Shown in pieces: positions 2,147 through 56,433 of a stretch of 64,000 nucleotides of DNA. The stretch lies in NCBI GenBank assembly GCA_015143295.1, contig CM026567.1, forward strand, positions 14,092,416 to 14,156,415, written 5' to 3'. Under the pieces are notes generated by a model. That model was not told where the DNA came from. It was given only the letters and a program-made list of their open reading frames with translations, and did no database searches. The stretch is from Tetracentron sinense. Lineage: Eukaryota > Streptophyta > Magnoliopsida > Trochodendrales > Trochodendraceae. Position 1 is the stretch's first letter, and every line of letters begins with the position of its first letter. Both the position numbers and the translations under genes were made by a program.

Positions 2147-2366
2147 TGTAGAGCCCCGGACCTTTTCACAGTTAATACATGACACTCTCGTTGTCATTTT
2201 TGCCTTTTTAAGAGGTATAATTAATAAATAAGGAAGAAATTGGAAATTTTGAAATGTCAGAAATGTTCCTCTTCGAAGTAGGAACACAACGCAAGTTGAA
2301 TCGTCAAAATCGGATGAACAAGTCAAAAGATATGGCCAAAACAGTCTGAACCGGTAGGAAAACGTA

Positions 2367-2538: not shown

Positions 2539-2549
2539 ACAACGGACTA

Positions 2550-3295
2550 TTCACGGCACCACGAGTCGACACTATTCACGGACCACGAGTTGACACTATT
2601 CACAACACCACGAGTTGGCACTATTCACAGCACCACGAGTTGGCACTATTCACGGACCACGAGTTGACACTATTCACGGACCACGAGTTTGCACTATTCA
2701 CAACACCACGAGTTGGCACTATTCACGGACCACGAGTTGACACTATTCACAACACCACGAGTTGGCACTATTCATAGCACCACGAGTTGGCACTATTCAC
2801 GGACCACGAGTTGACACTATTCACGGACCACGAGTTGGCACTATTCACAGCACCACGAGTTGGCACTATTCACGGACCACGAGTTGACACTATTCACGGC
2901 ACCACGAGTTGACACTATTCACGGACCACGAGTTGACACTATTCACAACACCACGAGTTGGCACTATTCACGGACCACGAGTTGACACTATTCACAACAC
3001 CACGAGTTGGCACTATTCACGGACCACGAGTTGGCACTATTCACGGACCACGAGTTGACACTATTCACAGCACCACGAGTTGGCACTATTCACGGACCAC
3101 GAGTTGGCACTATTCACGGACCACGAGTTGGCACTATTCACAGCACCACGAGTTGGCACTATTCACGGACCACGAGTTGGCACTATTCACGGACCACGAG
3201 TTGACACTATTCACAACACCATGAGTTGGCACTATTCACGGACCACGAGTTGACACTATTCACAGCACCACGAGTTGGCACTATTCACAACACTA
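2550..3295 (+). repeat. 24/25-bp tandem array in U3 (about 30 copies)
   Basis: Units read CACGAGTTGRCACTATTCAC plus a 4-5-base joint (GGAC, AACAC or AGCAC). The joint types alternate irregularly. It is a minisatellite that varies between LTR copies: shorter, diverged versions lie in LTR2 (about 7,725-7,960) and LTR3 (about 10,320-10,705). Long open frames across it are a side effect of the repeat. Confidence 0.9.
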
Positions 3296-4228
3296 TTCAC
3301 AGAAATCCCAGTAAGGGTATTACGGTCTTTTGGTCAGTTCACTCTTACCTTAAGAGTTTAACCCGAGCCTTTAGGGCTTCATTTGACACTTAGAGAGTTT
3401 GAGAGAATAGGAGAAAGGGGAGAAGGCGATTCCAACCTAGGGTTTTCATTTTGGAGAGAAATCAAAGGGTTTTGAAACCCTAGATCAACCTCCAGCCTAT
3501 TTTTCTTCAAGATCAAGGCACAAACTCGTGAGGAGCATCTCCTCAAACTAGGGCAGCAGCTACACAGTCGTTTTGGAAAGGGGTTTCTTCCTCATTTCTT
3601 CAAGGTCGGTGCTTCTTACTACCCTCCTAGTTATAGTTCCTCTTTCCTCTTCTTTTCTCTTCATTTTCTTTCATTTACACATGTGCTATGAGATGGATGA
3701 ATGGTAAATGGTAAATGGTGAATGGTGAATGGTGAATGGAGATGGAATGGGCGATTGGATGCCAATGGTTGTGTGTGATGAACAAATGGGGAAGGGCATT
3801 GTTCCAATAATGAACGTACATCTATGATTTGAGTAAAACCCATCTAGAAAAGCATGTTGTAGGGTAAATCCATAATGAACACACCATGTTTGATGAAATG
3901 CCAAGGTGAACACAGTGAGCTGAAAATCTGGAAATGCATGCCTAATAAATTATAAATATTGCTAGGGACTATGATAGTGTGTTTCCTGCTTTCCCTAAAT
4001 GCTATGAATATAGAATTGCTCAATCTTTAATGTTATGTGTGTTGTGAAATTTCCCAAATGTCATGTTTAAATTTAAATGCAAGTATGTACACGGTTCCCA
4101 CGAGCACGGCATGCATGACATGATTTATTGAGTTTACAAGAACATGGTTAGAGGTGGGACATATCTTCCGATATGTTTTACCTCGTTCATGACAAGACAT
4201 GGCATGACAAGCATAAGCATTCCAGGAA

Positions 4229-4673: not shown

Positions 4674-4694
4674 GCTGAGTATTCCATGCTCAGC
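4674..4694 (+). other. Conserved CTGAG...CTCAG hairpin before the mini-ORF
   Basis: GCTGAGTAT-TCC-ATGCTCAGC can form a 9-bp stem (one G-T wobble) with a 3-base loop, 10 bases before the mini-ORF ATG. It is found in every LTR copy here that keeps this region, in either orientation. Confidence 0.65.
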
Positions 4695-4704
4695 CGTACT
4701 TCTT

Positions 4705-4824
4705 ATGTCGGCAGGTTCTGAGGGAGCTGCTGTTTCATTTGATGTTTGTGCTCCTGGTCCATGGGTGGAAGAGGAGTACGTCGAGGAGCCTTTGGAGGAA
4801 CCTCCCGTAGAGGGTTACCAATAG
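4705..4824 (+). CDS. LTR-resident mini-ORF with PWVEEEY core (39 aa), LTR1 copy
   Basis: I do not recognise this peptide. It starts at the ATG in TTATGTCGGCAGG and encodes MSAG, then an Ala-rich stretch, FDVCAPGPWVEEEY, then an acidic Glu/Pro tail ending EGYQ. There is no signal peptide or membrane segment. It lies in the LTR between two conserved hairpins, downstream of the promoter and upstream of the primer site, so it would be in the 5' leader of the element's RNA. The core PW(V/I/L)E(E/K)EY recurs in at least ten LTRs here, including families with little other similarity, and several differences are synonymous. Two divergent families lack the ATG but keep the peptide, so the true start may differ or the segment may be an exon. 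Coding status is an inference. Confidence 0.45.
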   Translation: MSAGSEGAAVSFDVCAPGPWVEEEYVEEPLEEPPVEGYQ

Positions 4825-4886: not shown

Positions 4887-4900
4887 GCGGGCATGTCCGC
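4887..4900 (+). other. Second conserved leader hairpin (GCGGG-CATG-TCCGC), LTR1
   Basis: A 5-bp stem (last pair G-T) with a CATG loop after ATGTATTTTG. Equivalent sites: 9,528-9,541; 12,305-12,318; 13,329-13,342; 20,865-20,882; 32,243-32,256; 33,304-33,318; 38,600-38,617; 39,829-39,849; 46,833-46,846; 55,967-55,980. Stem bases differ between families while pairing is kept. Confidence 0.65.
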
Positions 4901-7597: not shown

Positions 7598-8859
7598 CTA
7601 CGGGCACGCTCACCACAGGCACGTTGTACAACTCACCCGGGCACGCTGTACATAAGACAACGGACTACGGGCTCAGCACTATGCACAGCACGAAGTGACA
7701 ACGGGTTCGACACCCTTGACAACGGACCACGAGTTGGCACTGTTGACAACGGACCACGAGTTGGCACTGTTCACAGCACCACGAGTTGGCACTGTTCACA
7801 GCATCACGAGTTGGTACTATTCACCGCACAACGAGTGGGTACTATTCACCGCACAACAAGTGGGCACTATTCACGGCACAACGAGTGGGTACTATTCACG
7901 GCACAATGTGTTCAGCACTATTCACGGCACAATGTGTTCAGCACTATTCACGGTCCTCGCGTCATTTCAGAAATCCCAGTAAGGGTATTACGGACTTTTG
8001 ATCAGTTCACTCTTACCTTAAGAGTTTAACCCGAGCCTTTAGGGCATCATTCGACACTTAGAGAGAATAGAAGAAAGAGGAGAAGGCGACTCCAACCTAG
8101 GGTTTCCATTTGGGAGAGAAATCAAAGGGTTTGAAACCCTAGATCAACCTCAAGCCCGTTTTCTTCAAGATTTCGGTGCAAGCATTCGTGGAGCTCACGA
8201 ATCAAGCTAGGGCAGCAACTCACAGCCATTTGGAAAGAGGGTTTCTTCCTCATTTCTTCAAGGTCGGTACTTTTTACTACCCTCCTAGTTATAGATCCTC
8301 TTTTCCCCTCATTTCTCTTTATTTTCTTTCACTTCTACATGTGCTATGAGATGGATGAATGGTAAATGGTGAATGGTGAATGGAGATGTAAGGGGCGATT
8401 GGATGCCAGTGGTTGTGTGTGATGAACAAATGGGGAAGGGCATTGTTTCAATAATAAACATACATGTATGATTTGAGAAAAACCCATTTAGAAAAGCATG
8501 TTGTAGGGTAAATCCATAATGAACACACCATGTTTGATGAAATGCCAAGGTGAATAAAGTGTGATGTAAATTAGTAAATTCATGCCTAATAAATTCTGAA
8601 TATTGCTAGGGTGTAGTGTGTTTCCTGCTTTCCCTAAATGCTATGAATATTGAATTGCTCAATCTTTAATGTTATGTGTGTTGTGAAATTTTCCCAAATG
8701 TCATGTTTAATTTTAAATGCAAGTATGTACACGGTTCCCACGAGCACGGCATGCATGACATGATTTATCGAGGTTTCCAAGAAGATGGATAGAGGTGAGG
8801 CATATCCTACGATATGTTTTACCTCGCTTTTCACAAGTAGACAAGAACCAACATTCCAC

Positions 8860-9345: not shown

Positions 9346-9465
9346 ATGTCGGCAGGTTCTGAGGGAGCTGCTACTCCATTTGATGTTTGTGCTCCTGGTC
9401 CATGGGTGGAAGAGGAGTACGTCGAGGAGCCTTTGGAGGAACCTCCAGTAGAGGGTTACCAATAG
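9346..9465 (+). CDS. PWVEEEY mini-ORF, LTR2 copy
   Basis: 39 codons, same start context and layout as at 4,705; the peptide differs at two residues from the LTR1 copy and is the same as at 56,043-56,162. Confidence 0.45.
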   Translation: MSAGSEGAATPFDVCAPGPWVEEEYVEEPLEEPPVEGYQ

Positions 9466-9898: not shown

Positions 9899-11627
9899 TG
9901 TAGAGCCCCAGACCTTTTCATGCTTAATACATGACACTTTCGTTGTCATTTTCCCTTTTTAAGAGGTATAATTAATAAATAAGGAAGAAATTGGAAATTT
10001 CGAAACGTCAAAAATGTTCCTTTTCGAAGTACGAACACAACGCAAGTTGAATCGTCAAAATCGGATGAACGAGTCAAAAGATATGGCCAAAACAGTCTGA
10101 ACCTGTAGGAAAACGTAGCTCGGTTATGCACTGAGGACGTAGCTCGGAAGGCACTAAGGACGTGCTCTGACGTCGTACTCTGATAACGTAGCACAGACAA
10201 CGTACTCTGATAACGTATACTGTGTGCATCCGTTGTACAACTCACCACGGGCACGTTGTACAACTCACAACTGGCACGTTGTACAACTCACCACGGGCAC
10301 GCTGTACATAAGACAACGGACAACGTGTTCAGCACTGTCCACAACAGACAACGTGTTTGGCACTGTTCACAGCTCAACGAGCTCAGCACTATGCACAACA
10401 CAACGGACAACGTGTTCAGCACTGTCCACAACGGACAACGTGTTTGGCACTGTTCACAGCTCAACGAGCTCAGCACTATGCACAACACAACGGACAACGG
10501 GTTCAGCACCCTCCACAGCACCACGAGTTGACACTGTTCACAGCACCACGAGTTGGCACTGTTCACAGCACCACGAGTTGACACTGTTCACAGCACCACG
10601 AGTTGACACTGTTCACAGTACCACGAGTTGGCACTGTTCACAGCACCATGAGTTGGCACTGTTCACAGCACCACGAGTTGGCACTGTTCACAGCACAACG
10701 AGTTCGACACTCGTGTTTTTACAAAAATTTAATAAGGGTGTTATGGTCTTTTGTCAGTTCACTATTACCTTAAGAGTTTAACCCGAGCCTTTAGGGCATC
10801 ATTCGACACTTAGAGAGTTTGAGAGAATAGGAGAAAGGGGAGAAGGCGATTCCAACCTAGGGTTTCCATTTTGGAGAGAAATCAAAGAGTTTTGAGACCC
10901 TAGATCACCTCCAGTCCGGTTTTCTTCAAGATCTCGGCTCAAGCACTCGTGGAGAGCGTTCTCCAAGCTAGGACAGCAGCTACACAGTCGTTTGGAAGAG
11001 GGATTTCTTCCTCATCTCTTCAAGGTCGGTGCTTCTTACTACCCTCCTAGTTATAGTTCCTCTTTCCCCTTCTTTTCTTTTGTTTTCCTTTCATTTACAC
11101 ATGTGCTATGAGATGGATGAATGGTAAATGGTGAATGGTGAATGGAGATGGAATGGGCGATTGGATGTCAATGGTTGTGTGTGATGAACAAATGGGGAAG
11201 GGCATTGTTCCAATAATGAACATACATGTATGATTTGAGTAAAAAACCCATCTAGAAAAGCATGTTGTAGGGTAAATCCATAATGAACATACCATGTTTG
11301 ATGAAATGCCAAGGTGAATAAAGTAAGCTGTAAATTCACAAGTGCATGCCTAATGAATTCTGAATATTGCTAGGGCCTATGATAGTGTGTTTCCTGCTTT
11401 CCCAAAATGCTATGAATATTACATTACTCAATCTTTGATGCTATATGTGTTGTGAAATTACCCAAATGTCATCTTTAAATTTGAATGCAAGTATGTACAC
11501 AGTTCCCACGAGCACGGCATGCATGGCATGATTTATCGAGGTTTTCAAGAACATGGTTAGAGGTGGGACGTATCCTACGATATGTTTTACCTCGCTTTTC
11601 ACTAGAAGACAAGAACCAACATTCCAC

Positions 11628-12122: not shown

Positions 12123-12242
12123 ATGTCGGCAGGTTCTGAGGGAGCTGCTGCTCCATTTGATGTTTGTGCTCCTGGTCCATGGGTGGAAGATGAGTACGTC
12201 GAGGAGCCTTTGGAGGAACCTCCCGTAGAGGGTTATCAGTAG
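12123..12242 (+). CDS. PWVEDEY mini-ORF, LTR3 copy
   Basis: 39 codons, same layout as at 4,705; the core has one Glu-to-Asp change. Confidence 0.45.
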   Translation: MSAGSEGAAAPFDVCAPGPWVEDEYVEEPLEEPPVEGYQ

Positions 12243-13405: not shown

Positions 13406-13525
13406 CTAATGGTAACCCTCTACAGGAGGTTCCTCCAAAGGCTCCTCGACGTACTCCTCCTCCACCCAAGGGCTCGGAGCACAGATATCAAATGGAGCAG
13501 CTGCTCCGCCATCACCTGCCGACAT
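13406..13525 (-). CDS. PWVEEEY mini-ORF, minus-strand copy
   Basis: 39 codons, same layout as at 4,705; it has DICAPSPWVEEEY in place of DVCAPGPWVEEEY. Confidence 0.45.
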   Translation of the reverse strand: MSAGDGGAAAPFDICAPSPWVEEEYVEEPLEEPPVEGYH

Positions 13526-15586: not shown

Positions 15587-18264
15587 TCATTCAAACAACT
15601 CGGGGTACTTCGCCTTGACTTCGGCCTCACGTTCCCATGTAGCCTCTTCTCGAGCGTGATGCTGCCATTGCACGAGAATTAGAGGAATAGTCTTGTTGCG
15701 AAGTACTTGGTCTCTTCGATCCAAAATATGAACCGGCTTTTCAGTCAAGGTGGGGTCCTCTCGAATCTCCAACGGTTCCAAGTCTATGACATGCGAAGGA
15801 TCCGTAATGTACTTCCGAAGCATAGACACATGGAAGACGTTGTGAACTGCGGCCATGTGAGGTGGGAGAGCTACCCTGTAAGCAACCTCACCAACTCGCG
15901 TGATAATCTCAAAAGGCCCAACATACCGAGGACTGAGCTTGCCTCGCTTGCCAAATCTCATGATCCCTTTGCTAGGAGATACTTTCACAAAAACTTGATC
16001 CCCTACTTGAAATTCCAAGTCCCTACGGCGCGTGTCCGCATAACTTTTCTGGCGATCTTGAGCGGCTTTCAATCGATCCCGAATGATCTTAACTGTGTTT
16101 GCAGTTTGCTCAATCAACTCCAGACCAAGTACTTTCCTTTCTCCTACCTCATCCCAATAGAGAGGAGACCTACAACTTCGCCCATACAAGGCCTCAAATG
16201 GTGCCATTTGGATACTTGCCTGATAGCTGTTATTGTAGGCGAATTCCACCAAAGGCAAGTGCTCTTCCCAACTGCCTCTGAAATCCAACATACAAGCCCG
16301 AAGCATGTCTTCAATGACTTGGTTCACTCTCTCAGTTTGTCCATCCGTCTGTGGATGAAAAACGGTGCTGAAATCAAGTCGGGAACCCATAGCCTCCTGG
16401 AAGCTTTTCCAGAATCGTGATGTGAATCTTGGATCCCGATCTGACACAATACTAACGGGCACTCCGTGCAACCTCACCACTTCCTTGATGTACAAAGCGG
16501 CTAACTGACTAGAGTTGAAAGTAGTTCGGTAAGGCAAGAAGTGAGCGGACTTCGTTAAACGATCCACTACTACCCATATCGCATCTGAGCCCCTTGCCGT
16601 CTTTGGCAAGTCAACTATGAAATCCATGGATATGTGCTCCCATTTCCACTCGGGAATCGGAAGGGACTGTAATAGACCTGCGGGCCGCATGTGCTCTGCC
16701 TTCACCTGTTGGCACACTAAGCATCGTGCTACATACTCCGCAACATCCCTCTTCATTTTCCGCCACCAAAAGTGACTCTTGAGGTTCCGGTACATCTTTG
16801 TACCCCCAGGATGCACTGTGTACTTCGAACGATGTGCTTCGTCCATGATCTCTCGTCGAAGATCTGCATTGGCCGGAACACACAGCCTTCCTTTGAACGT
16901 TATAGCACCTCGGCTAGTGAGAGAAAAGTCTTCACTGATGTCCAGAAAAGTCTTCCCGGAAAGCCAACAATTCCGCATCCATGGCTTGATATTCTTGGAT
17001 CAAATCTATAATGTACGGCCGAACCGTAACATTTGCCAAGATAGGACTACGGACAGAGTCATTCACACTGATGTCCAGATTTGCCAAATCTTCAAGTAGC
17101 TTCCATTCTTGAACCAACATGTGTGCTAACAACCCCTGAGGTCTTCTACTCAAAGCATCAGCCACTACATTTGCTTTACCCGGGTGGTATTGAATGGTAC
17201 AATCATAGTCCTTCAAAAATTCCATCCAGCGCCGTTGCCTTAGATTCAGCTCCTTTTGGGAAAAGAGATACTTGAGACTCTTGTGATCGGTAAACACATA
17301 GAACTCCACCCCATAAAGGTAATGACGCCAAATCTTAAGTGCAAACACGACCGCCGCAAGCTCCAAGTCGTGCGTGGGATAATTCTTCTCATGCTCCTTC
17401 AATTGCCTTGATGCATAAGCAATGACCTTCTTGTGTTGCATAAGCACACATCCAAGTCCAACGTGTGAGGCATCACTGTACACCTCATACCCAAGAGGTC
17501 CGGATGGCACTGTAAGGACAGGAGCTATCGTAAGCCTCTTCTTCAGTTCCGTGAAACTGATCTCACACTTGTCGCTCCAAACAAACTTCGCATTCTTCCT
17601 TGTCAGGTGAGTAAGCGGTGCTGCAAGGCTAGAGAAACCCTCTACGAATCTCCTGTAGTAGCCTGCCAGCCCAAGAAAGCTGCGTATCTCAGTAACACTC
17701 TTGGGCCTCGCCCAACTCATAACAGCTTCTATCTTCTTCGGATCAACGGAGATGCCTTCCGCGGAAACAACGTGGCCTAGGAATGCTACCTTTTCCAACC
17801 AAAACTCACACTTGCTAATTTTGGCGTATAGCTTGTGCTCTCTTAACATTTCCAATGCAAGGCAAAGGTCGCGTACGTGATCTTCCCGTGTCTGGGAATA
17901 GACCAAAATGTCATCAACAAATACAATCACGCACCGATCTAGGTATGGTCGGAACACCCGGTTCATCAAATCCATAAAGGCTGCCGGCGCGTTCGTGATA
18001 CCAAAAGGCATCACCAAGAACTCATAGTGCCCATATCGAGTCCTGAAAGCAGTTTTGGGAACATCTTCCACCTTAATCTTTAACTGGTGATAACCCGATC
18101 GAAGATCTATCTTCGAGAAAAATCTCGCTCCCTTCAACTGATCGAAAAAGTCGTCAGTCCTAGGCAAGGGATACCTATTCTTTATAGTGACCTTGTTCAA
18201 TTGCCGGTAATCGACGCACATCCGCATCGAACCATCTTTCTTCTTAACAAACAACACCGGGGCA
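15587..18264 (-). pseudogene. Tekay-type pol remnant: RT, RNase H, integrase, chromodomain-like tail
   Basis: Read right to left: RT with [20 protein letters not shown] (near 18,180-18,257) and catalytic FVDD (near 17,910-17,930); RNase H with [10 protein letters not shown] and [11 protein letters not shown]; integrase with HHCC zinc site and CLVCQQVK, a core with SMDFIVDLP and the NSYQASIQMAPFEALYG block; then the GKLSPRYVGPFEI domain. The tail VQWQHHAREEATWE..YPELFE resembles the chromodomain of Tekay/Del elements. It is the longest integrase here and nearly whole, with about one or two breaks. RT stops abruptly at 18,264, so protease, gag and 5' LTR are missing. Confidence 0.94.
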
Positions 18265-18678: not shown

Positions 18679-20676
18679 TGTAGAGCCCCGGACCTTTTCA
18701 CATTTAATGCATGACACTTTCGTTGCCATTTTTCCTTTAAAGAGGTATAATTAATAAATAAGGAAGAAATTGGAAATTTCAAAAGGTCAGAAATGTTCAT
18801 TTTCGAAGTACGAACCCAACGCAAGTTGAATCATCAAAATCGGACGAACGAGTCAAAAGATATGGCCAAAACAGTCTGGACCTGTAGGCAACCGATCGCT
18901 CGGTCCATAGAGCGATCGATCGGTAGCTATCGACTGGTTAAGATTTTTGTATGGGGAAATTTTCCAGAGAGTTGATTTTTGGTCGAGAGCTCGGTCAACA
19001 CACCGATCGCTCGGTAGGCAACCGATCGATCGGTCATTAACACCGATCGCTTGGTACTCGCGTTTTTTGCAGAAATTCAGTAAGGGTATTATGATCTTTT
19101 GGTCGGTTCACTCTTACCTTAAGAGTTTAACCCGAGCCTTTAGGGCTTCATTTCGACACTTAGAGAGATTGGGAGATAAGAAGAGAGGAGAGGGCGATCC
19201 CTAAACCTAGAGAGAGATCTTAGAAGAGAAGGGAAGGGAGTGGAGGTTTGCAAGAGGGGTTTTTGGATTTAGAGAAGAAGAGCACAAATCGAGCCTTGAT
19301 CTCGCTCCTACGCGCCATTGGAGCTTGGATCTCCAACATCAAGCTTGGGTTTCACTTCTACAAGCTTCTTCAAGCCTTTTCAAGCATTGGATCAAAGGGA
19401 TTTCATCCCATAAGGTAGATACACTCTACTAGGTTCTAATTTCATAAACCCTTAATGAAAAGCATGATTTTCTTGACAAGTATAGTTATATATAGCCTCT
19501 TATATGTAAAAATACACTCTTCTAGCAATTGATTTCATGAAACCCTTTCTACATCAAGATAAAATCCCATGAATGATGGTGTGAATTAAATGTGATGATG
19601 TTATGCTTTCAACCAACAAATAAAAGATGATAATTTTTGAGTTGTTCTATATGTTAGTATCCAAGATGAAAAGCATGTTAAAAGCAACAAGTTTTGGGAA
19701 GAATAAGTAGAAAAACCTTATTTTAAATGTGATTGGAATGGTGTGATGTTATTGTATATGGATTATGGTGATGGATGAATTATGTTGAGTATGAGACATA
19801 TGACCATATGTAAAGGGTTTTCCCTAATGTCTACTATGTTATATCACAATTGCTACACGGACACATACGCATATGCATGATCGAGTTTTTCTATATTATG
19901 GGTATCCAAAAGAAGAAGTCCATGTATATAAGATGCAATACAAGAATAAGAAGAAGAAGAATATAAGACGCAAATAAATTACATGAAAAATATAAGATGT
20001 AAATGAACCACATGAATAGAACAAGAAGCAAAAGAAGTATAAGAAAAGTACAAGAAGCACAAGATGTATACGGAAAGCATAAGAAGCACAAGATACATAC
20101 GGAAAATACAAGAAGCATAAGATGTTACAAGAAATACAAGAAGATGGAAAGTATACGGAAAAAGCCGACAGGGATGCGACGATAGCAGGCCGCCTGAAAG
20201 GGAAAGGGATACTGGCATCGGACTCCGATGATAGCAGGCCGCCCGGAAGGGAGATGGATACTGGTCGTCTACCCTTGAGGTAGCCGAAGGTGAGGAGAAC
20301 ATTAGGCCACCCAGTTTACGTGGGTACAAGTACTAGTTGTCCTACTCCGGAGGTAGCAAATGATGAATACCAAGGTATTTTAAATACCCGTACAGGATAA
20401 TAAAAGATAAAAGCCAAGGTATTTTAAATACCCGTATATGCAAAGGTATAAGATGAAAAAAAGATGATAAGAAGATGTAAAAGACAAAAGATGATAAGAA
20501 GATGTTTTCCGATAGTATTTTCTAAGATATATGCACATGATATGATTTTGTTTTCCGCGCTGATTTCAGAAATGCATGTGAAATGATAAACCGTGATATA
20601 TGTTGGATTACTGTTTATGATATTACTATCTAGTGGTTTGTATACGCTGAGTATTCCATGCTCAGCCGTACATATT

Positions 20677-20832
20677 ATGTCGGCAGGTCCCTTCGACATT
20701 TGCGGCGAGCGTCCTCAAGAACCATGGGTCGAGGAAGAGTATGTTGAGGAGGAGGAGACTTGGGGTAGTCTTCAGCAGCAGAGGACTCAGGAGGAGCAGA
20801 GGGCTTTTGTTAGGTGGCCCCATCATGAGTGA
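20677..20832 (+). CDS. EPWVEEEY mini-ORF, family 2 copy (51 aa)
   Basis: Same ATG context (TTATGTCGGCAGG) and MSAG start, then PFDICG, EPWVEEEYVEEEE, a Gln/Glu-rich stretch and a RWPHHE end. Only the first half matches family 1; the ending matches the family 2 copy at 38,650-38,786 (RWWPHNE). This is the longest version with an intact start. Confidence 0.5.
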   Translation: MSAGPFDICGERPQEPWVEEEYVEEEETWGSLQQQRTQEEQRAFVRWPHHE

Positions 20833-32062: not shown

Positions 32063-32182
32063 ATGTCGGCAGGTTCTGAGGGAGCTGCTGCTCCATTTGA
32101 TGTCTGTGCTCCTGGCCCATGGGTGGAGGAGGAGTACATTGAGGAGCCTGTGGGGGATCCTCAGGGCGAGGGCCACTATTAG
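32063..32182 (+). CDS. PWVEEEY mini-ORF, solo LTR A copy
   Basis: 39 codons with the same ATG context. The first 24 residues are as in family 1; the tail (IEEPVGDPQGEGHY) differs but keeps length and acidity. Confidence 0.45.
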   Translation: MSAGSEGAAAPFDVCAPGPWVEEEYIEEPVGDPQGEGHY

Positions 32183-33361: not shown

Positions 33362-33505
33362 TCAACAAAAGTCGAAGTCTCGACACCTATCTATATGACC
33401 ATCGTCCTGATAATGATCCATGGAAGGCTCCGGGTCGAAGTACTCTTCCTCCAACCATGGTTCCATGCCACATATGTTGAACGGAGCCCGAGCACCTGCC
33501 GATGA
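33362..33505 (-). CDS. EPWLEEEY mini-ORF, solo LTR B (divergent family)
   Basis: The frame encodes SSAGARAPFNICGMEPWLEE and EY, then DPEPSMDHYQDDG and a C-terminus ending DFDFC. The usual ATG is absent here, yet the peptide frame is kept. The tail matches the solo LTR C copy (PEPTMDHHQDDG) with many synonymous codon differences. Confidence 0.4.
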   Translation of the reverse strand, partial: SSAGARAPFNICGMEPWLEEEYFDPEPSMDHYQDDGHIDRCRDFDFC

Positions 33506-33925: not shown

Positions 33926-34443
33926 GAATTACTTAGAATCGTTCCTTATTAGTTTTTTTTTTGTGAAAAACACCTTTTTGTACGTTGAGAAATCCATGGA
34001 AAACATCGATTCATGCGAGACATGCGAGCATATGAACATATGAGGGTAATATTCATATTTAAGCATCAAAATCCCTTAGAGGTATTTCATCAAACAGAGT
34101 GCACCATAATGATAACTTACATCCAACATAGCATAACATCCTTCCATACCATAGCAAATCAAGGTATATGTAGCATAGAGTAAGAAGAATCATATTTAAC
34201 AACTAGTAGGATTGCAAGATTGGTAGTAGAGTGTATTTACCTTGGTGAAATCAAAGATTTTGATTCCAAAAGCTAGAACAAGCAAGAACCGTGAGTTCTT
34301 GGTTGAGAATCACCAAAAACAATGGAAGAACTTGATCTTCCACAAGTTTGAACAATCACCGAGCTCCTCTCCTTCTTCTCTCTCTCAAAATCTCTCAAAA
34401 ATATGCACTAAGAGTTTCTGAAACCCTAAGGCACGAACCCAGC

Positions 34444-34452
34444 CTTTATATA
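34444..34452 (-). promoter_or_regulatory. TATA box, solo LTR B
   Basis: TATATAAAG on the minus strand, followed by the GGGTTTCAGAAACTC leader. Its place between the U3 palindromes and the leader fits a core promoter. Confidence 0.6.
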
Positions 34453-38649: not shown

Positions 38650-38786
38650 TCACTCATTATGGGGCCACCACCTATCAAGTATCCTCTGATACTCCTGAAG
38701 CTCCTTTGGAGTAGGTATCTCCTTAATATATTCCTCCTCAACCCATGGTTCCTGAGCATATGCATCAAAACAGGATCTGCCGACAT
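38650..38786 (-). CDS. EPWVEEEY peptide region, family 2 minus copy
   Basis: The minus strand encodes FDAYAQEPWVEEEYIKEIPT and ends DRWWPHNE. It pairs with the copy at 20,677 in both core and tail. The adjoining hairpin reads GAGTATT-C-AATACTC. Confidence 0.4.
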
Positions 38787-39879: not shown

Positions 39880-40025
39880 TCAATAATAGTCTAGATAAGG
39901 TCTCCTATCTAGAGCTCCATCATCCTGGTGATGATCCATGGTAGGCTCCGGCTCGTAGTACTCCTTCTCTATCCAGGGCTCAGGAGCGTGTGCATCCACA
40001 GTACCTATCGAACTCAACAATTCGG
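39880..40025 (-). CDS. EPWIEKEY mini-ORF, solo LTR C (divergent family)
   Basis: The frame encodes SSIGTVDAHAPEPWIEKEY, then PEPTMDHHQDDGALDRR and ends DYY. The frame stays open well upstream (to about 40,209) with no ATG at the usual site. Comparison with 33,362-33,505 shows conserved amino acids over changed codons. Confidence 0.4.
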
Positions 40026-45304: not shown

Positions 45305-45815
45305 AGTCTGTCGCGACCCAAAATACCCCTAGGAGTTAGGATACTTTAGCGTCGTGAACTCATTACCAAACCATCCTGTACAACATATAAGACATGCTAT
45401 AGCGGAAGCAGAATACAAAATATTCTATACATACTATATCCAAGTTTATACACATCCTTACTTCATTAGTTCATGTTATACATTTTTAGGTAACCTTAGT
45501 CCATTTCAAATTTGAAAACCAAAGCATCATCATTTTTCAAACAAAACCTAGGTTACTACTAAGTTAACTAGGAAGGGTGTACTAATGTTAAGGATTTCAC
45601 AAAATCTTGAAGAAACCCCTTGATTTGGAAGTCCTTGAGGAGGGATCTCCTAGCTTTTGATGAGGATGATCCTTGCTTGCAAATCTTCAAGATTTGGCTC
45701 CCTTGATCTCCCCTTGATCTTACTCCAAAACCCCTCTTGGATTTCCCTCAGTATCCCCTTCTCCTCTTTCTTTTCCTTAGGTTTAGGTTAAACTCAAAAG
45801 CCCCAAGGGAAAGCC

Positions 45816-46610: not shown

Positions 46611-48888
46611 TGTCGCGACCCAAAACCCACCCTAGGAGTTAGAGTGAACTTTGGACGACTAATCATGGCTTACATGACTTGCTTGACAAACCAACCTGCA
46701 AAAACCCACAGAGCATATACAATAGAGGATATAAACAGCGGACACATACTCTAACATAACACAGCGGAAGTCTAAACAAACCTCTATGTATATACGAATC
46801 CAAGTTTATACAAAAGGAATCCAAAAGAAAGTGCGGACAGGCCCGCCAAAATACATGAATGTATATCTCTCATCTCATCCACAGCTATTCACTCAGAATC
46901 TACAACCACCTAATGGTAACCCCTCTACTGGAGGTTCCTCCAAAGGTTCCTCGACGTACTCCTCCTCCACCCAAGAGCTCGGAGCACAGACATCAAAAGG
47001 AGCAGCTGATCCGCCATCACCTACCGACATAAGAAGTACGGTTGAACATGGAATACTCAGCGGGTACCAAGCACTAACCAACAGTCATAGCATACGGATA
47101 GCATACATAAAGCAGGAAACAATTCACGCATATAAAGTAGGAATGATTCATATCATGACAATAAAGTAAAGCAATATAATTCATCATGTTTGCAATCATA
47201 AAAGCCGGTAAAACCCTTGAAATCTTGTGCACTTGACTTGACTGAAATTACCCTTTTTATGCTTGAAAACTTGTCTACCGTGTCATGCTTGTATCATGCA
47301 TGTCATGTCATGCCATGCGTGTATCATGCTTGCTTGTTCTGAAAAGTAATCTACTTGTGAGGGAAGGGAGACCCTTCTTCCTAGAATGCTCATGCTTGTC
47401 ATGCTATGTCATGTCATGCTTACTCAGAAAAGTAAACTACTTGTGAGGGAAGGGAGACCCTTCTTCCTAGAATGCTCATGCTTGTCCTTCCACTTGTGAG
47501 ATTCACTTGTGAGATGTCCTTGTGAGATGCACTTGCGAGGGAAGGGAGACCCTTCTTATGAAAATGCATGATTGTCTTGTCATTGCCAAAAGCGAGGTAA
47601 AACATATCGTAGGATATGCCCCACCTCTAAATCCCATTCTTGAAAATATGATAAATCATGTCATGTATGCGTGCTCGTGAGGTCGTGTGCATACTTGCAT
47701 TTGGAATTAAATATGACATTTGAGTACTTCATAACACATAACATCATGATTTGAGCATTTAATATCATATCATTAGGGCAAACAACAATCACACTATCAT
47801 GACCCTAGCAATTTTCCTCCTAAACCTTAAACATGCATTTTCTTAATTTATTATTCATTTTATTCACCTTGGCATTGATCAAACATGGTGCATTCATTAT
47901 TTTATTAAAACCCTACAACAATGCTTTCTAGGTGGGTTTTATTCACATCACATAGTATGTTCATTATGGGTACAATGCCCTCCCCGTTCATCCATCACAT
48001 CAATACACACGGCATCCAATCGCCCACATTCATCTCCATTTCACCATTCACCATTCACAACCCATCTCATAATACATGGATTATAAAGGACACAAAGAAA
48101 TAAAGGAAAAGAAGAACTATAAACTAGAAGGGTAGCAAGAAGTACCGACCTTGAAGAAATGAGGAAGAAACCCTTCCAAAAACGCAGGGCCGTGTAACTG
48201 CTGCCCCAGCTTGGATCACGGATCTCCTCGAATGCTTGAGCCTTGATCTTGCAGAAAACGGGCCGTGGGATTAATTAGGGTCTTAACCCCTTTGCTAGGC
48301 CCCATATGAAAACTAGGTTGGACAAACCCTTCCTCGTTCTATCCTATCTCATTCTCTCAAATATGGCTAAGGGCGTTGAGGAACACCCTGGCTCGAGCCA
48401 ACCCTTAAAATAAGGGGGGACGTGGGCCAAAAGACCAAAAACCCCTAAAAAAAATTCTGAAATAGGTAGGGACAGAGAGATGACCCGATATACGGGTAGT
48501 ATGTAGACCGAACTAGACGGTGCTGCTGACCGATACGGTAGGGGACCGATATCTGTTTGAGTGGTGCTGCAGATGTACAGTACGATTTGGATTAACTTTT
48601 GAAATCGGTGCTACCGATTGACGATTCAATTGGTGGATTCGTCTTTCAAAGAGAAAACACTTTCAAGTTTTGAAAAAAGTACTAATTTGCGATATCATTG
48701 GAAAAAAATAAGGCCCCTAAAGATGAATGGGTCTGCAATGGTGGGGGACAGCCCAAATTCTGGCAGTACCAACCCGATTTGAAATCCCACTTTGACTCAA
48801 CCCGCATCTAAATCAGGAAGTGATCAACGAAACTGAAGAGACGTTCTATATAAACTTTCCAAAAATTCATTAGCCACCAATGCTGAGC
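46611..48888 (-). repeat. LTR, family 1b, minus strand, cut by the gap
   Basis: It ends GGGTCGCGACA on the minus strand and shares all leader modules with 13,115-15,477, including hairpin arrays (47,353-47,560). Beyond about 48,270 the sequence fits the family only loosely, with scattered differences and garbled U3 palindromes, up to the N run. Confidence 0.85.
46893..47030 (-). CDS. SWVEEEY mini-ORF, minus-strand copy
   Basis: Same start context. The core reads SSWVEEEYVEEP, so the Pro of PWVEEEY is Ser, and the tail runs longer than in other family 1 copies. Confidence 0.4.
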   Translation of the reverse strand: MSVGDGGSAAPFDVCAPSSWVEEEYVEEPLEEPPVEGLPLGGCRF

Positions 48889-48988: not shown

Positions 48989-51529
48989 CCTGGAATACTC
49001 AGCGGGTACTAAATACTAAACACTGATTTATAGCATAAAAATGCAATAACGAATCAGGAGCAATTTATATATGTCAAACGAAAACAGTTCATATCATACA
49101 AGGACGTAAAGCGTTTATAGTTTATAATCATGCGGGTAATTCCGTAAAAAACCGATAAATCCTCTTGAAAACATAGTGCACGTGACTTGACTTGAAATAT
49201 CTTTTCGTACTTAAACTTGTTTGTTTGTCTTATCTGTCATCATGCGTGTCATGCATGTCATGCGTGCTTGAGAACGTAAACTACTGTGAGGGAAGGGAGA
49301 CCCTTCTTCCTAGAATGCTTATGTTTGTCACGCTATGTCTTTGTGAGGGAAGGGAGACCATTCTTCCTAGAATGCTTATGCTTGTCATGCCATGTCTTGT
49401 CATGCTTGCTTGGAAGAGTAAACTACTTGTGAGGGAAGGGAGACCCTTCTTCCTGGAATGCTTATGCTTGTCATGCCATGTCTTGTCATGAAGAGGTAAA
49501 ACATATCGGAAGATATGTCCCACCTCTAACCATGTTCTTGTAAACTCAATAAATCATGTCATGCATGCCGTGCTCGTGGGAACCGTGTACATACTTGCAT
49601 TTAAATTTAAACATGACATTTGGGAAATTTCACAACACACATAACATTAAAGATGAGCCAATTCTATATTCATAGCATTTAGGGAAAGCAGGAACACACT
49701 ATCATAGTCCCTAGCAATATTTATAATTTATTAGGCATGCATTTCCAGATTTTCAGCTCACTGTGTTCACCTTGGCATTTCATCAAACATGGTGTGTTCA
49801 TTATGGATTTACCCTACAACATGCTTTTCTAGATGGGTTTTACTCAAATCATAGATGTACGTTCATTATTGGAACAAATGCCCTTCCCCATTTGTTCATC
49901 ACACACAACCATTGGCATCCAATCGCCCATTCCATCTCCATTCACCATTCACCATTCACCATTTACCATTTACCATTCATCCATCTCATAGCACATGTGT
50001 AAATGAAAGAAAATGAAGAGAAAAGAAGAGGAAAGAGGAACTATAACTAGGAGGGTAGTAAGAAGCACCGACCTTGAAGAAATGAGGAAGAAACCCCTTT
50101 CCAAAACGACTGTGTAGCTGCTGCCCTAGTTTGAGGAGATGCTCCTCACGAGTTTGTGCCTTGATCTTGAAGAAAAATAGGCTGGAGGTTGATCTAGGGT
50201 TTCAAACCCTTTGATTTCTCTCCAAAATGAAAACCCTAGGTTGGAATCGCCTTCTCCCCTTTCTCCTATTCTCTCAAACTCTCTAAGTGTCAAATGAAGC
50301 CCTAAAGGCTCGGGTTAAACTCTTAAGGTAAGAGTGAACTGACCAAAAGACCGTAATACCCTTTACTGGATTTCTGTGAATAGTGTTGTGAATAGTGCCA
50401 ACTCGTGGTGCTGTGAATAGTGTCAACTCGTGGTCCGTGAATAGTGCCAACTCATGGTGTTGTGATAGTGTCAACTCGTGGTCCCGTTGAATAGTGCCAA
50501 CTCGTGGTCCGTGAATAATGCCAACTCGTGGTGCTGTGATAGTGCCAACTCGTGGTCCTTGAATAGTGCCAACTCGTGTCCTGTGAATAGTGCCACTCGT
50601 GGTGCTGTGAATAGTGTCAACTCGTGGTCCGTGAATAGTGGCCAACTCGTGGTCCGTGAATAGTGCCAACTCGTGGTGTTGTGAATAGTGTCAACTCGTG
50701 GTCCGTGGAATAGTGCCAACTCGTGGTGTTGTGAATAGTGTCAACTCGTGTCCGTGAATAGTGTCAACTCGTGGTGCCGTGAATAGTGCCAACTCGTGGT
50801 CCGTGAATAGTGCCAACTCGTGGTGCTGTGAATAGTGCCAACTCGTGGTCCGTGAATAGTGTCAACTCGTGGTCCGTGAATAGTGCCAACTCGTGGTGCT
50901 ATGAATAGTGCCAAACTCGTGGTGTTGTGAATAGTGTCAACTCGTGGTCCGTGAATAGTGCCAACTCGTGGTGTTGTGAATAGTGCAAACTCGTGGTCCG
51001 TGAATAGTGTCAACCTCGTGGTCCGTGAATAGTGCCAACTCGTGGTGCTGTGAATAGTGCCAACTCGTGGTGTTGTGAATAGTGTCAAATCGTGGTCCGT
51101 GAATAGTGTCGACTCGTGGTGCCGTGAATAGTCCGTTGTCTTATATACAGTGTGCCCGTGGTGAGTTGTACAACGTGCCCGTTGTGAGCTGTACAACGGA
51201 TGCACAAAGTATACGTTATCAGAGTACGTTGTCTGTGCTACGTTATCAGAGTACGACGTCAGAGCACGTCCTTAGTGCCTTCCGAGCTACGTCCTCAGTG
51301 CATAACCGAGCTACGTTTTCCTACCGGTTCAGACTGTTTTGGCCATATCTTTTGACTGTTCATCCGATTTTGACGATTCAACTTGCGTTGTGTTCCTACT
51401 TCGAAGAGGAACATTTCTGACATTTCAAAATTTCCAATTTCTTCCTTATTATTAATTATACCTCTTAAAAAGGCAAAAATGACAACGAGAGTGTCATGTA
51501 TTAACTGTGAAAAGGTCCGGGGCTCTACA
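48989..51529 (-). repeat. Family-1 LTR, minus strand, inverted twin of LTR1
   Basis: It starts after the gap inside the CTGAG hairpin and ends TGTAGAGCCCCGG on the minus strand at 51,529, where integrase sequence begins. Hairpin array (about 49,290-49,460), 24/25-bp array (about 50,380-51,130) and ACGT block (about 51,205-51,320) match LTR1 in order and nearly in sequence. Confidence 0.92.
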
Positions 51530-53990: not shown

Positions 53991-54133
53991 CTGAAATTTT
54001 AGCTAGTTACGTCAATTCAAGCATCAACAGTGTATACAATAGGTATATACATATATAGCATACCAAGTACGTACACATGGAATAAAACATAACATAACCA
54101 TCACGAATAAAGAAAATAACTCCAAACGCGTAC
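53991..54133 (-). other. Intron-like GT-AG segment between gag and pol
   Basis: An A/T-rich 143-bp stretch between the Gag and protease coding regions, with GTACGC at its start and AATTTCAG at its end on the minus strand. The same CAAG-GTACGC context ends gag in the two gag-only elements. Whether it is spliced is an inference; introns in gag-pol are known in some plant Ty3/gypsy elements such as Ogre. Confidence 0.4.
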
Positions 54134-55375
54134 CTTGCACCACATCGTCAGATGCAAGTGCATCACCCTCTGTCAAGGCAAAAACTCGCCCCTGGTTCGC
54201 CTGGCGAGACTGTGGTGTAGATCGGGTAGTCTGAGATGACGCCTGGTATGATCCTGCTGGGCGTGCTGGGGGCCTACTACCCTGAGACTGGCCTGGTAAA
54301 TGCCGGCTAGGGCAATCCCTGATCATGTGGCCCTGGCGACCGCAATGATAACATCCACCAGATGCTCTTCGACAATCTCCTGCCGGATGCCTTTTGCCGC
54401 ATGAAGTGCAGACCTCGTGTGTCGGAGGGGCCGGAGGTGGAGCATACCTCATCGTCTGAGGTGCAACAGGCCGTGGGGCTGGAAGAGCCTGAGGTCTCGG
54501 CGCCTGAGGCACATACTGCCGGGGAGCTGGAGGCGCATAAGATGGCCTCATCGGTGGTGCTGGCCACGCATACTGATAAGGACCGGTACGAGTCCGCCTC
54601 TCTAGAGGTGCTGAACTACTAGCTTGGCCTCTCGCCAACTCCCTCTTCTTGGACACTGTCTTTGAATTGGCCTCGACCAATAAGGCCTTGTCTACTACCT
54701 CAGAGTAGGTAGCATGTCTGAAGATTGAAACCTTCTCCATGATAACATCCTTGAGCCCTTGCTCAACCTTCTTGCTTTCATTGACTCGGTGGCAACCATG
54801 TGAGTCGCGAAGCGTGATAGCTCCGAGAACTTGGCCTCATAAGCGGTCACAGACATCGAACCTTGCTCAAGGTTGATGAATTCCCTCTCTTTCCTTTCCC
54901 GTACTCCAATCGGAAAATACTTCTTGTAAAAAGTATCTTTGAACTCCTCCCAAGTCCAAGGCAGACCCTGCATGGTCGAGTCTCTCGTCCTCAATGCGGA
55001 CAACCACCAATGGTGGGCTTCACCCTCTAGCATGAAAGCTGCCCATGCTACTCTCTCCTCCTCTGTAGGTGAGAGGACCGTAAAGATCTTCTCCATCTGG
55101 AGGATCCATGCCTCCGCAGCAAGAGGGTCCACACTCCCATGGAAGGGTGGAGGCCTCAATCTCCTGAATGCCTCAACTCCAGCGGTACGATGTACTAGAG
55201 CTGCGGGCGGTGGAGTAGGTGCCGCCGATGATGGTATAGCTTGTCGAGCCGCCAGTATGGCGAGTGTCTCAGCAATAGAGCCGAAGACCTGAGAGAGGTC
55301 CGACTGCTCATCCTCATCCCGTGAAGAAGAGGAAGCTCTGGTATGTGGTCCACGACCCCGTGTGTTCCGTCTCAT
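54134..55375 (-). pseudogene. Tekay-type gag (capsid and two zinc knuckles)
   Basis: Starts MRRNTRGRGPHTR near 55,375, then DEQSDLSQVFGSIAETLAIL. The capsid (Retrotrans_gag-like) includes EAFRRLRPPPFHGSVDPLAA, WTWEEFKDTFYKKYFPIGV and FINLEQGSMSVTAYEAKFSE. A Pro-rich linker (many APRP repeats, about 54,430-54,600) leads to two knuckles, CTSCGKRHPAGDC and CYHCGRQGHMIRDC (about 54,325-54,415), and an ANQGRVFALTEGDALASDDV end. It is nearly whole, with about one break. Confidence 0.93.
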
Positions 55376-55720
55376 GACTAAAGTCCTGAGAACAATAGCA
55401 CCACATGAGTCTAACTTGAAACCACAGTTTATTTCAATGTCATTTCACAATAATTCAATTTGTATTAGTTATATAATACTAATACACATCACATCAAGTC
55501 ATCAGAGTATTCATCACATTATACTTATACTTTAGTGTTCTAGCGTACTTAAGACCCGTACTTGGTTAAAGCAACCATTTTCGACTAAGACTAAGGTTTT
55601 AGTCTTACACTTGGATCAAGACTCTCTTCCGACTTACTTTCTTCCTAACTTGTTTCCCAACATATGCTCTTGTCAAGCCGTGGTATAAGATTCTAAGTGA
55701 CCCTAGAGACCTAAAGCCTA
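55376..55720 (-). other. Leader between gag and primer site
   Basis: Non-coding. The part next to the primer site matches 5,134-5,330 closely. Confidence 0.7.
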
Positions 55721-55737: not shown

Positions 55738-56433
55738 TGTCGCGACCCGAAACCCACCCTAGGAGTTAGAGTGAACTTTGGACGACTAATCATGGCTTAC
55801 ATGACTTGCTTGACAAACCATCCTGCAAAAACCCACAGAGCATATACAATAGAGGACATTATCAGCGGAAACATACTCTATCCTGGCACAGCGGAAGACT
55901 AACAACCCTCTATGTATATACATACTTAAATTCAAGTTTTATACAAAAAGCAATCCATAAGAAAGTGCGGACATGCCCGCCAAAATACATAAATCTGACT
56001 CTCGTCTCACCCACAGCTAAACCACTCAGAATCTACAACCACCTATTGGTAACCCTCTACTGGAGGTTCCTCCAAAGGCTCCTCGACGTACTCCTCTTCC
56101 ACCCATGGACCAGGAGCACAAACATCAAATGGAGTAGCAGCTCCCTCAGAACCTGCCGACATAAGAAGTACGGCTGAGCATGGAATACTCAGTGGGTACT
56201 GAATACTAACCAACAATTATAGCATAGAAATGGCAACACATGATCAGGAGCAATTCATATATGTCAAATGGAAACAATTCATATCATACAAGGAAGTAAA
56301 GCAGTTTATAATCATGCTTGAAATTCGTAGAAAGCCGATAAATCCTCTTGAAAACATCGTGCACTTGACTTGACTTGAAATCTCTTTTCGTATTTGAAAT
56401 CTTGTCTTGTCTATCTTGCTTGATTCTTGTATG
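55738..56433 (-). repeat. 5' LTR (end portion only), family 1, minus strand
   Basis: It ends GGGTCGCGACA on the minus strand next to the primer site. It holds the second hairpin, mini-ORF and CTGAG hairpin, and stops at 56,433 where a LINE begins. Nearly identical to the last 700 bases of LTR2 (9,070-9,770). Confidence 0.9.
56043..56162 (-). CDS. PWVEEEY mini-ORF, minus-strand 5' LTR copy
   Basis: 39 codons; the predicted peptide is the same as at 9,346-9,465. Confidence 0.45.
   Translation of the reverse strand: MSAGSEGAATPFDVCAPGPWVEEEYVEEPLEEPPVEGYQ

Follow-up and report, generated by a model that had tools for sequence, protein, structure and literature searches.

Retrotransposon RNAs that yield Gag alone by way of splicing have been described for Ty1/copia elements (PMC3735527, PMC12786077). 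In the barley Ty1/copia element BARE1, 104 nt are spliced out, which shifts the reading frame into a stop codon (PMC3735527). The element analysed here resembles the Arabidopsis Ty1/copia element EVADE in its proposed use of a spliced subgenomic RNA for GAG; in the accessible text of that report, however, the short GAG loses the protease domain and then meets a stop through a frameshift, and no LTR exon is described (PMC12786077). As far as the portions of these reports available to us go, splicing routes to a Gag-only product are in print for Ty1/copia only, whereas the elements considered here are Ty3/gypsy. To our knowledge, it is an open question how plant Ty3/gypsy elements with a single ORF come to produce more Gag than Pol. 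The encoding of a protein within a retroelement LTR has a likeness in the MMTV superantigen, a large LTR open reading frame with its own start codon; the frame reported here differs in being a short predicted exon without a conserved start codon. Among open-licence papers we recognised none that describes this LTR exon or its peptide.

Our study reports on a short frame inside the LTRs of plant Ty3/gypsy chromoviruses which, on the evidence of sequence comparison, is a coding exon with a defined phase and under codon constraint. We propose that it acts as an alternative 3'-terminal coding exon that would be spliced to the end of gag, and we put the probability of this reading at roughly 0.6. 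The host elements display the order of Gag, protease, RT-RNase H and integrase, together with a chromodomain, that defines chromoviruses. Pfam domains above cut-off are Retrotrans_gag, zf-CCHC, RVP_2, RVT_1, RT_RNaseH, Integrase_H2C2 and SH3_Tf2-1, with rve and Chromo (E 6e-4) below it; this series is a composite, gag to RT being read from one element and integrase and chromodomain from another. Gag and protease motifs may point to the Tekay clade, an assignment that we treat as a lead only. In the window, as we call the whole 64,000-nucleotide stretch of DNA analysed, the chromoviruses adjoin LINEs (Pfam), and one pol region was delimited:

15590..18257, minus strand: chromovirus pol, with RT, RNase H, integrase and chromodomain

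The one intact pol end that was read closes with the chromodomain and its own stop before the LTR, and the LTR peptide was rejected as a tail of pol. At 2150-2210 (+) and ~51350-51450 (-) an integrase breaks off at one and the same residue (..VRLHGVPVS) and continues directly into an LTR start (CRAPDLF..), which suggests either a deletion derivative that went on to spread or a nested insertion that was duplicated.

The peptide is recognised by a core, PW(V/I/L/F/M)EEEY, which has 22,253 matches with varying synonymous codons in the 1.16-Gb host assembly. The corresponding degenerate 20-mer, CCNTGGNTNGARGARGARTA, was found 11,116 + 11,137 times genome-wide, against none for the reversed control and about one match expected by chance (our own estimate, assuming equal base frequencies). 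The variant pattern in which the last Glu codon is changed to Asp has 3,034 genome matches, so that Asp appears to be tolerated in some copies. All eleven window copies listed in the preliminary description were found in their places, and ten of them fit the PW-type core under a fixed pattern; the copy at ~47,030 (-) reads SWVEEEY in place of PW and has a frameshifted tail. The frames read in these LTRs are as follows, a solidus marking a predicted splice border:

4715..4824, plus strand: predicted LTR-encoded exon frame of family A, from AG/GT to the stop
9356..9465, plus strand: LTR exon frame, family A copy
12133..12242, plus strand: LTR exon frame, family A copy, with PWVEDEY
13406..13515, minus strand: LTR exon frame, family A copy
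20687..20832, plus strand: LTR exon frame, family B
32073..32182, plus strand: LTR exon frame, family A-like copy
33362..33495, minus strand: LTR exon frame, family C, no ATG at the usual place
38650..38776, minus strand: LTR exon frame, family E; 28 nt from AG/AT to the core, out of phase
39880..40004, minus strand: LTR exon frame, family D, GATAG/GT, no ATG at the usual place
46893..47020, minus strand: LTR exon frame, family A copy, SWVEEEY, frameshifted tail
56043..56152, minus strand: LTR exon frame in the 5' LTR, followed by the primer binding site TGGTATCAGAGC and gag

When the window LTRs were sampled by a motif at their 3' end, independently of the core, 11 of 12 were found to contain it, with one residue change allowed. 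The remaining LTR, near 45,341 (-), has lost the exon together with most of the sequence 5' of it, as if by a single deletion; this LTR and the 700 nt upstream hold a TATA box, an ATG-poor leader and a primer binding site, and it is a possible non-autonomous form. Searches of protein collections returned no homologue for the 51-residue reading or for the gag 3' ORF, the core pattern had one match among viral contigs and ten among prokaryotes (our chance estimates being ~2 and ~15), and no Rfam family reached its gathering score within the window.

Further analysis was made on 51 copies, consisting of the 11 window copies and 40 loci (L009-L048) picked from the first 100 listed core matches on one contig in favour of diverse codon spellings; L001-L008 duplicate L009-L016 and were excluded ahead of counting. 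Family and group names follow peptide likeness and not a tree. The sample was selected on the core, and the core codons were therefore excluded from the test of constraint. Across 34 of the 51 copies in eight groups (the other 17 being decayed, near-duplicate or groupless), pS is 0.55, pN 0.17 and dN/dS 0.20 for the tail 3' of the core. Its opening 13 codons give 0.22, compared with 1.03 and 0.89 for the other two frames, and the 21 nt 5' of the core give 0.23 against 1.45 and 0.78; all these figures are indications of size, since the pairs are non-independent and the alignments protein-guided. Non-coding windows gave ratios of 0.33 to 1.05 and are poor controls, because there DNA that does not align was forced into a protein alignment; the comparison rests instead on the two alternative frames of the segment itself. 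The values lie far below the ratio near 1 that the preliminary description had set as telling against the frame, and its view of an LTR-encoded, codon-conserved peptide common to very different families is upheld. Similar tail endings in several distant families (..DLDAWPYLDYC, ..NPDYYPYY and ..DFDFC, each followed by a stop) suggest, from sequence likeness, a true C-terminus.

In a scan of 60-nt windows from -1300 to +420 relative to PW, the bias to third-position changes in the window 0..59, which includes 20 selected bases, is over threshold in six of the eight peptide groups, L020 and L023 being the exceptions. Three other windows exceed the threshold, in family A only: -60..-1, which overlaps the exon, and +60..+119 and -180..-121, which we read as alignment or end effects. 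On this codon pattern we reject a nucleotide-level element as the sole explanation. That a promoter, packaging or splicing-enhancer element should happen to be open in one frame is scarcely credible when tail pS is so far above pN, when the other frames evolve at dN/dS ~1 and when third-position changes dominate at 0..59 in most groups; the region evidently does carry RNA or DNA signals, since the frame is flanked by two hairpins whose arms have changed and still pair:

4674..4694, plus strand: hairpin GCTGAGTAT-tcc-ATGCTCAGC, upstream of the predicted 3' splice site, its stem covarying between families
4887..4900, plus strand: second hairpin, GCGGG-catg-TCCGC, 3' of the stop, at the same place in other LTRs

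The upstream hairpin lies ~20-45 nt 5' of the AG, and its arms change between families with the pairing kept (GCTGAGTAT with ATGCTCAGC, GCTGAGTGT with ATACTCAGC, GCGGAGTAA with TTACTCAGC, ACTGAGC with GCTCAGT). By our own count it outscores any other stem in 39 of the 51 copies, with a mean score of 17.3 against 12.9 for shuffled sequence. The second hairpin (GCGGG with TCCGC, AGGTGGG with TCCACCT, GAGCGAG with TTCGCTC, GAGTGGG with TCCACTC) shows a modest excess in 38 copies, 13.8 against 12.0, and perhaps has a role in 3'-end formation.

The preferred reading of the frame as an exon draws on the sequence immediately 5' of the core, where a pyrimidine-rich stretch closes in AG, most commonly as TCGGCAG/GT. 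The frame of the preliminary description, 4,705-4,824, translates as MSAGSEGAAVSFDVCAPGPWVEEEYVEEPLEEPPVEGYQ followed by a stop; in families A and B its ATG sits within this splice-site-like stretch (TTATGTCGGCAG/GT), before the AG, and in other families the stretch takes the form TTATTTTCGGTAG, TTATCATCGGCAG, TTTAATGTTTGGTAG or TTTCAG/GAGGG.

4705..4714, plus strand: ATGTCGGCAG, holding the mini-ORF ATG, inside the 3'-splice-site-like stretch and outside the proposed exon

A site of the YAG/G type is present in 44 of the 51 copies and stands in phase 1 in 39 of these 44; control AGG[TA] sites are distributed 51/47/38 across the three phases. The 12 copies without an in-phase site comprise five that are out of phase by the rule used and seven without a site of this form, some of which have AG/A or a mutated AG. 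The distance from AG to PW in the in-phase copies is 23, 26, 29, 35 or 44 nt; the preliminary description had set length differences other than multiples of three as telling against the frame, and the differences here are multiples of three. No stop occurs between AG and PW in any of the 39 in-phase copies, and the peptides read from the AG have a median of 37 residues and a median net charge of -10, with a Met before PW in only two of 39.

These observations bear on the alternative in which the 5' leader carries a leader peptide or a regulatory uORF, begun at an ATG or a non-AUG codon. An in-frame ATG does occur between the last stop and PW in 30 of 51 copies, and exactly at the usual place, TTATGTCGGCAG, in 19 of the 39 in-phase copies; the 5' LTR copy of the frame, moreover, has the predicted start site on its 5' side and gag on its 3' side. 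Against this, an in-frame ATG is missing from 21 of the 51 copies, so that the start codon of such a leader frame is not conserved, an in-frame stop stands three codons 5' of the AG in L010 and L017, the phase follows the AG even in copies without the ATG, and in our own reading no near-cognate start codon is common to the families. We consider a uORF or leader peptide improbable, and the frame is probably not a stand-alone mini-ORF. The absence of the ATG, attributed in the preliminary description to two families, is real and was understated; of the readings offered there the exon is favoured, and the ATG-started mini-ORF, leader peptide and uORF are left unsupported.

Elsewhere in the same LTRs lies a leader that ends in a donor-like motif:

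3605..3625, plus strand: start of the stretch after the 5'-splice-site-like CTTCAAG/GTCGGTGC, with an ATG-free leader before it and ATG-rich sequence after
34240..34452, minus strand: family C promoter-like TATA box (CCTATATAAAGG) and ATG-free stretch to AAG/GTAAATAC

The leader donor motif, AG/GT followed by one of five spellings, was found in 29 of 51 copies, two of these rows (-39978 and -38748) naming the same donor. In the 180 nt 5' of the donor the mean ATG count is 0.79, with none in 21 of the 29, against 9.62 in the 180 nt 3' of it. TATA[AT]A occurs 123-345 nt 5' of the donor in 14 of the 29 rows, ten of them at 188-250 nt, and is missing in most family A copies. We judge the leader donor weak in most families by common donor weights. 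It often lies within a small inverted repeat (GTAGATACACTCTAC, GTTAGTACACCCTACTAAC), as at window position 34240 (-) with GTAGA-tacac-TCTAC, at 19415 (+) with GTTAGTA-caccc-TACTAAC, and at other loci; such a repeat may hide the leader 5' splice site and so favour unspliced genomic RNA. Family A LTRs also hold, in their 5' part and ahead of the promoter-like block, arrays of a ~25-nt repeat (ACTATTCAC..CACGAGTTGG) of very variable length (window 2546-3293, 7729-7951, 10514-10711 and 50388-51132).

Coding continuity from the LTR leader into the exon was considered and rejected: in all 29 donor-motif copies the leader phase that would be continued in the LTR exon is free of AUG, so that the exon could not take its start codon from this leader, and nine of the 29 have three or fewer open codons. 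The two could still be joined as non-coding leader exons today, the peptide being a relic, a possibility to which the donor-like AAG/GT closing the ATG-poor leader of the same LTR (29 of 51 copies) lends some colour. We regard it as distinctly improbable, given the constraint seen across many separate families and given that the literal leader/LTR-exon junction has no genome match (family A probe, three or fewer mismatches), though an RNA of this kind would keep both the primer binding site and the polypurine tract. As such a junction would be copyable, its absence mildly disfavours use of the LTR acceptor from the leader.

The leader would instead be joined to gag:

55375..55385, minus strand: gag start TTGTTCTCAG/GACTTTAGTC-ATG, with a 3'-splice-site-like AG 10 nt 5' of the gag ATG

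In six copies (the window element, L015, L037, L041, L053 and L054) gag starts 10-11 nt 3' of CTCAG/GA, and wherever the leader was read an ATG-rich leader precedes gag; the gag-start pattern has no match in L051, L052 and L055. Splicing of leader to gag, if true, would also leave that mRNA without a primer binding site. The literal leader/gag junction has no genome match (family A probe, three or fewer mismatches).

In our preferred reading the partner of the LTR exon lies at the other end of gag. Between the gag end (..SDDVVQ) and the protease is an AT-rich stretch with stops where translated, bordered by a donor, GTNGTNCAAG/GTACGC, and a YAG/G acceptor:

53991..54133, minus strand: predicted gag-protease intron, GTGCAAG/GTACGC ... 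TTTCAG/GAGCCC, phase 1 in the local frame

The start of the protease was seen in nine copies of three families: the window element, L015, L053 and L054 (family A), L037 and L041 (family C), and L051, L052 and L055 (the L020 family). All nine have the donor, as GTACAC in L041 and GTATGC in L055, and eight keep the acceptor, which is mutated in L051. Both sites are in phase 1 in the local frame and would join a Gly codon; the phase of the donor rests on this frame (..DDVVQ) and on L015, L037 and L067. Counted from the ATG it is 1 in L015 and in L037, whose gag has four stops, and 0 in the window copy, because the gag of the latter has an indel and seven stops. A degenerate pattern for the gag donor has 5,391 genome matches.

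The exact gag/protease junction lacking the intron was found in 48 genome copies, in several variants, against zero for the control (family A probe, three or fewer mismatches). In L067, the only such copy that was read, gag runs into protease without a break, and the leader, the LTR exon and the gag acceptor are retained. The intron-less copies bear the mark of reverse-transcribed spliced RNA, although some of the 48 may share descent; given this exact junction, the gag donor is very probably a working splice site. One of these copies lies at C1:38971181 and the others at 47 further places, and as natural retrocopies they are useful for learning which RNAs are reverse-transcribed.

We therefore have a gag donor and an LTR acceptor of the same phase, phase 1, where chance would give a match one time in three. 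Our model for the spliced RNAs is as follows. A promoter inside the 5' LTR would start an RNA whose ATG-poor leader ends at AAG/GT and is spliced to gag; beyond gag this RNA would carry the intron with its phase-1 donor GTNGTNCAAG/GTACGC, then pol, and then the second LTR with the phase-1 acceptor YAG/G. Joining the gag donor to the protease acceptor would make Gag-Pol, whereas joining it to the acceptor in the 3' LTR would make Gag with an extension of Gly and ~36 residues, most of them acidic (...PWVEEEY...), closed by a stop, and no Pol. We infer the promoter and leader splicing, gag as the partner, the use of the 3' LTR copy and polyadenylation downstream of it, and the acidic tail would serve to make or mark the Gag-only product. 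On unspliced RNA, too, translation of Gag would stop within the intron, and a second route to Gag alone may therefore exist. The literal gag/LTR-exon junction has no genome match (family A probe, three or fewer mismatches), a negative that is uninformative because such an RNA would, by our model, have no polypurine tract and could not be copied.

The same LTR exon might have another partner, a donor in pol or a few pieces of gag, and so encode a small accessory protein, such as a factor for the nuclear export of unspliced genomic RNA like the CERV protein of Cer1. Several predicted introns imply that intron-containing genomic RNA must be exported, and the tail is conserved beyond the needs of a mere stop; in the available part of its description, CERV is itself built from gag-frame exons and a 3' exon (PMC10309623). 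The acidic tail (median net charge -10 over the 39 copies) is, however, unlike an RNA-binding stretch, and within gag the only phase-1 AG/GT that L015 and L037, both decayed, were seen to have in common is the gag-end site. We hold such a partner to be unlikely, though by no means negligible.

To return to splicing from the gag end, we would give even odds that this chromovirus group keeps its switch between Gag and Gag-Pol partly in the LTR, with one gag donor choosing between the protease acceptor and that of the 3' LTR. If true, the LTR would combine three roles, as promoter, as leader intron and as an alternative coding exon at the 3' end; each transposition would duplicate it, and the exon core has more than 22,000 copies in this one genome. 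What the model predicts, in a very abundant kind of plant DNA, is a specific junction together with a conserved Gag tail. A further suggestion is that LTRs may hold translated exons, and that LTR comparison or dating based on neutrality should treat this segment apart.

The arrangement may be compared with several described systems. Candidate sites for a Gag-only product by alternative splicing, of the BARE1 and EVADE type, are present in the sequence. As in BARE1, alternative splicing at the gag end would separate Gag from Pol in a single-ORF plant element (PMC3735527); here, however, the protease splicing keeps Pol, the proposed Gag-only exon lies in the LTR and has a conserved tail, and the superfamily is another. 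Like Ogre, these elements have an intron within a plant Ty3/gypsy gag-pol that is partly spliced, and its removal is attested by the 48 intron-less copies; the Ogre intron lies between GAG-PROT and RT (PMC6317226), whereas the intron of these chromoviruses separates gag from protease, and a further acceptor is predicted in the LTR. CERV of Cer1, a Ty3/gypsy element of C. elegans, offers the likeness of gag-frame exons spliced to a 3' exon (PMC10309623), and the gag donor and LTR acceptor described here are phase-compatible, with zero junction copies for the family A probe. The 3' exon of CERV is a long ORF between pol and the LTR, while the exon proposed here encodes ~37 residues inside the LTR itself.
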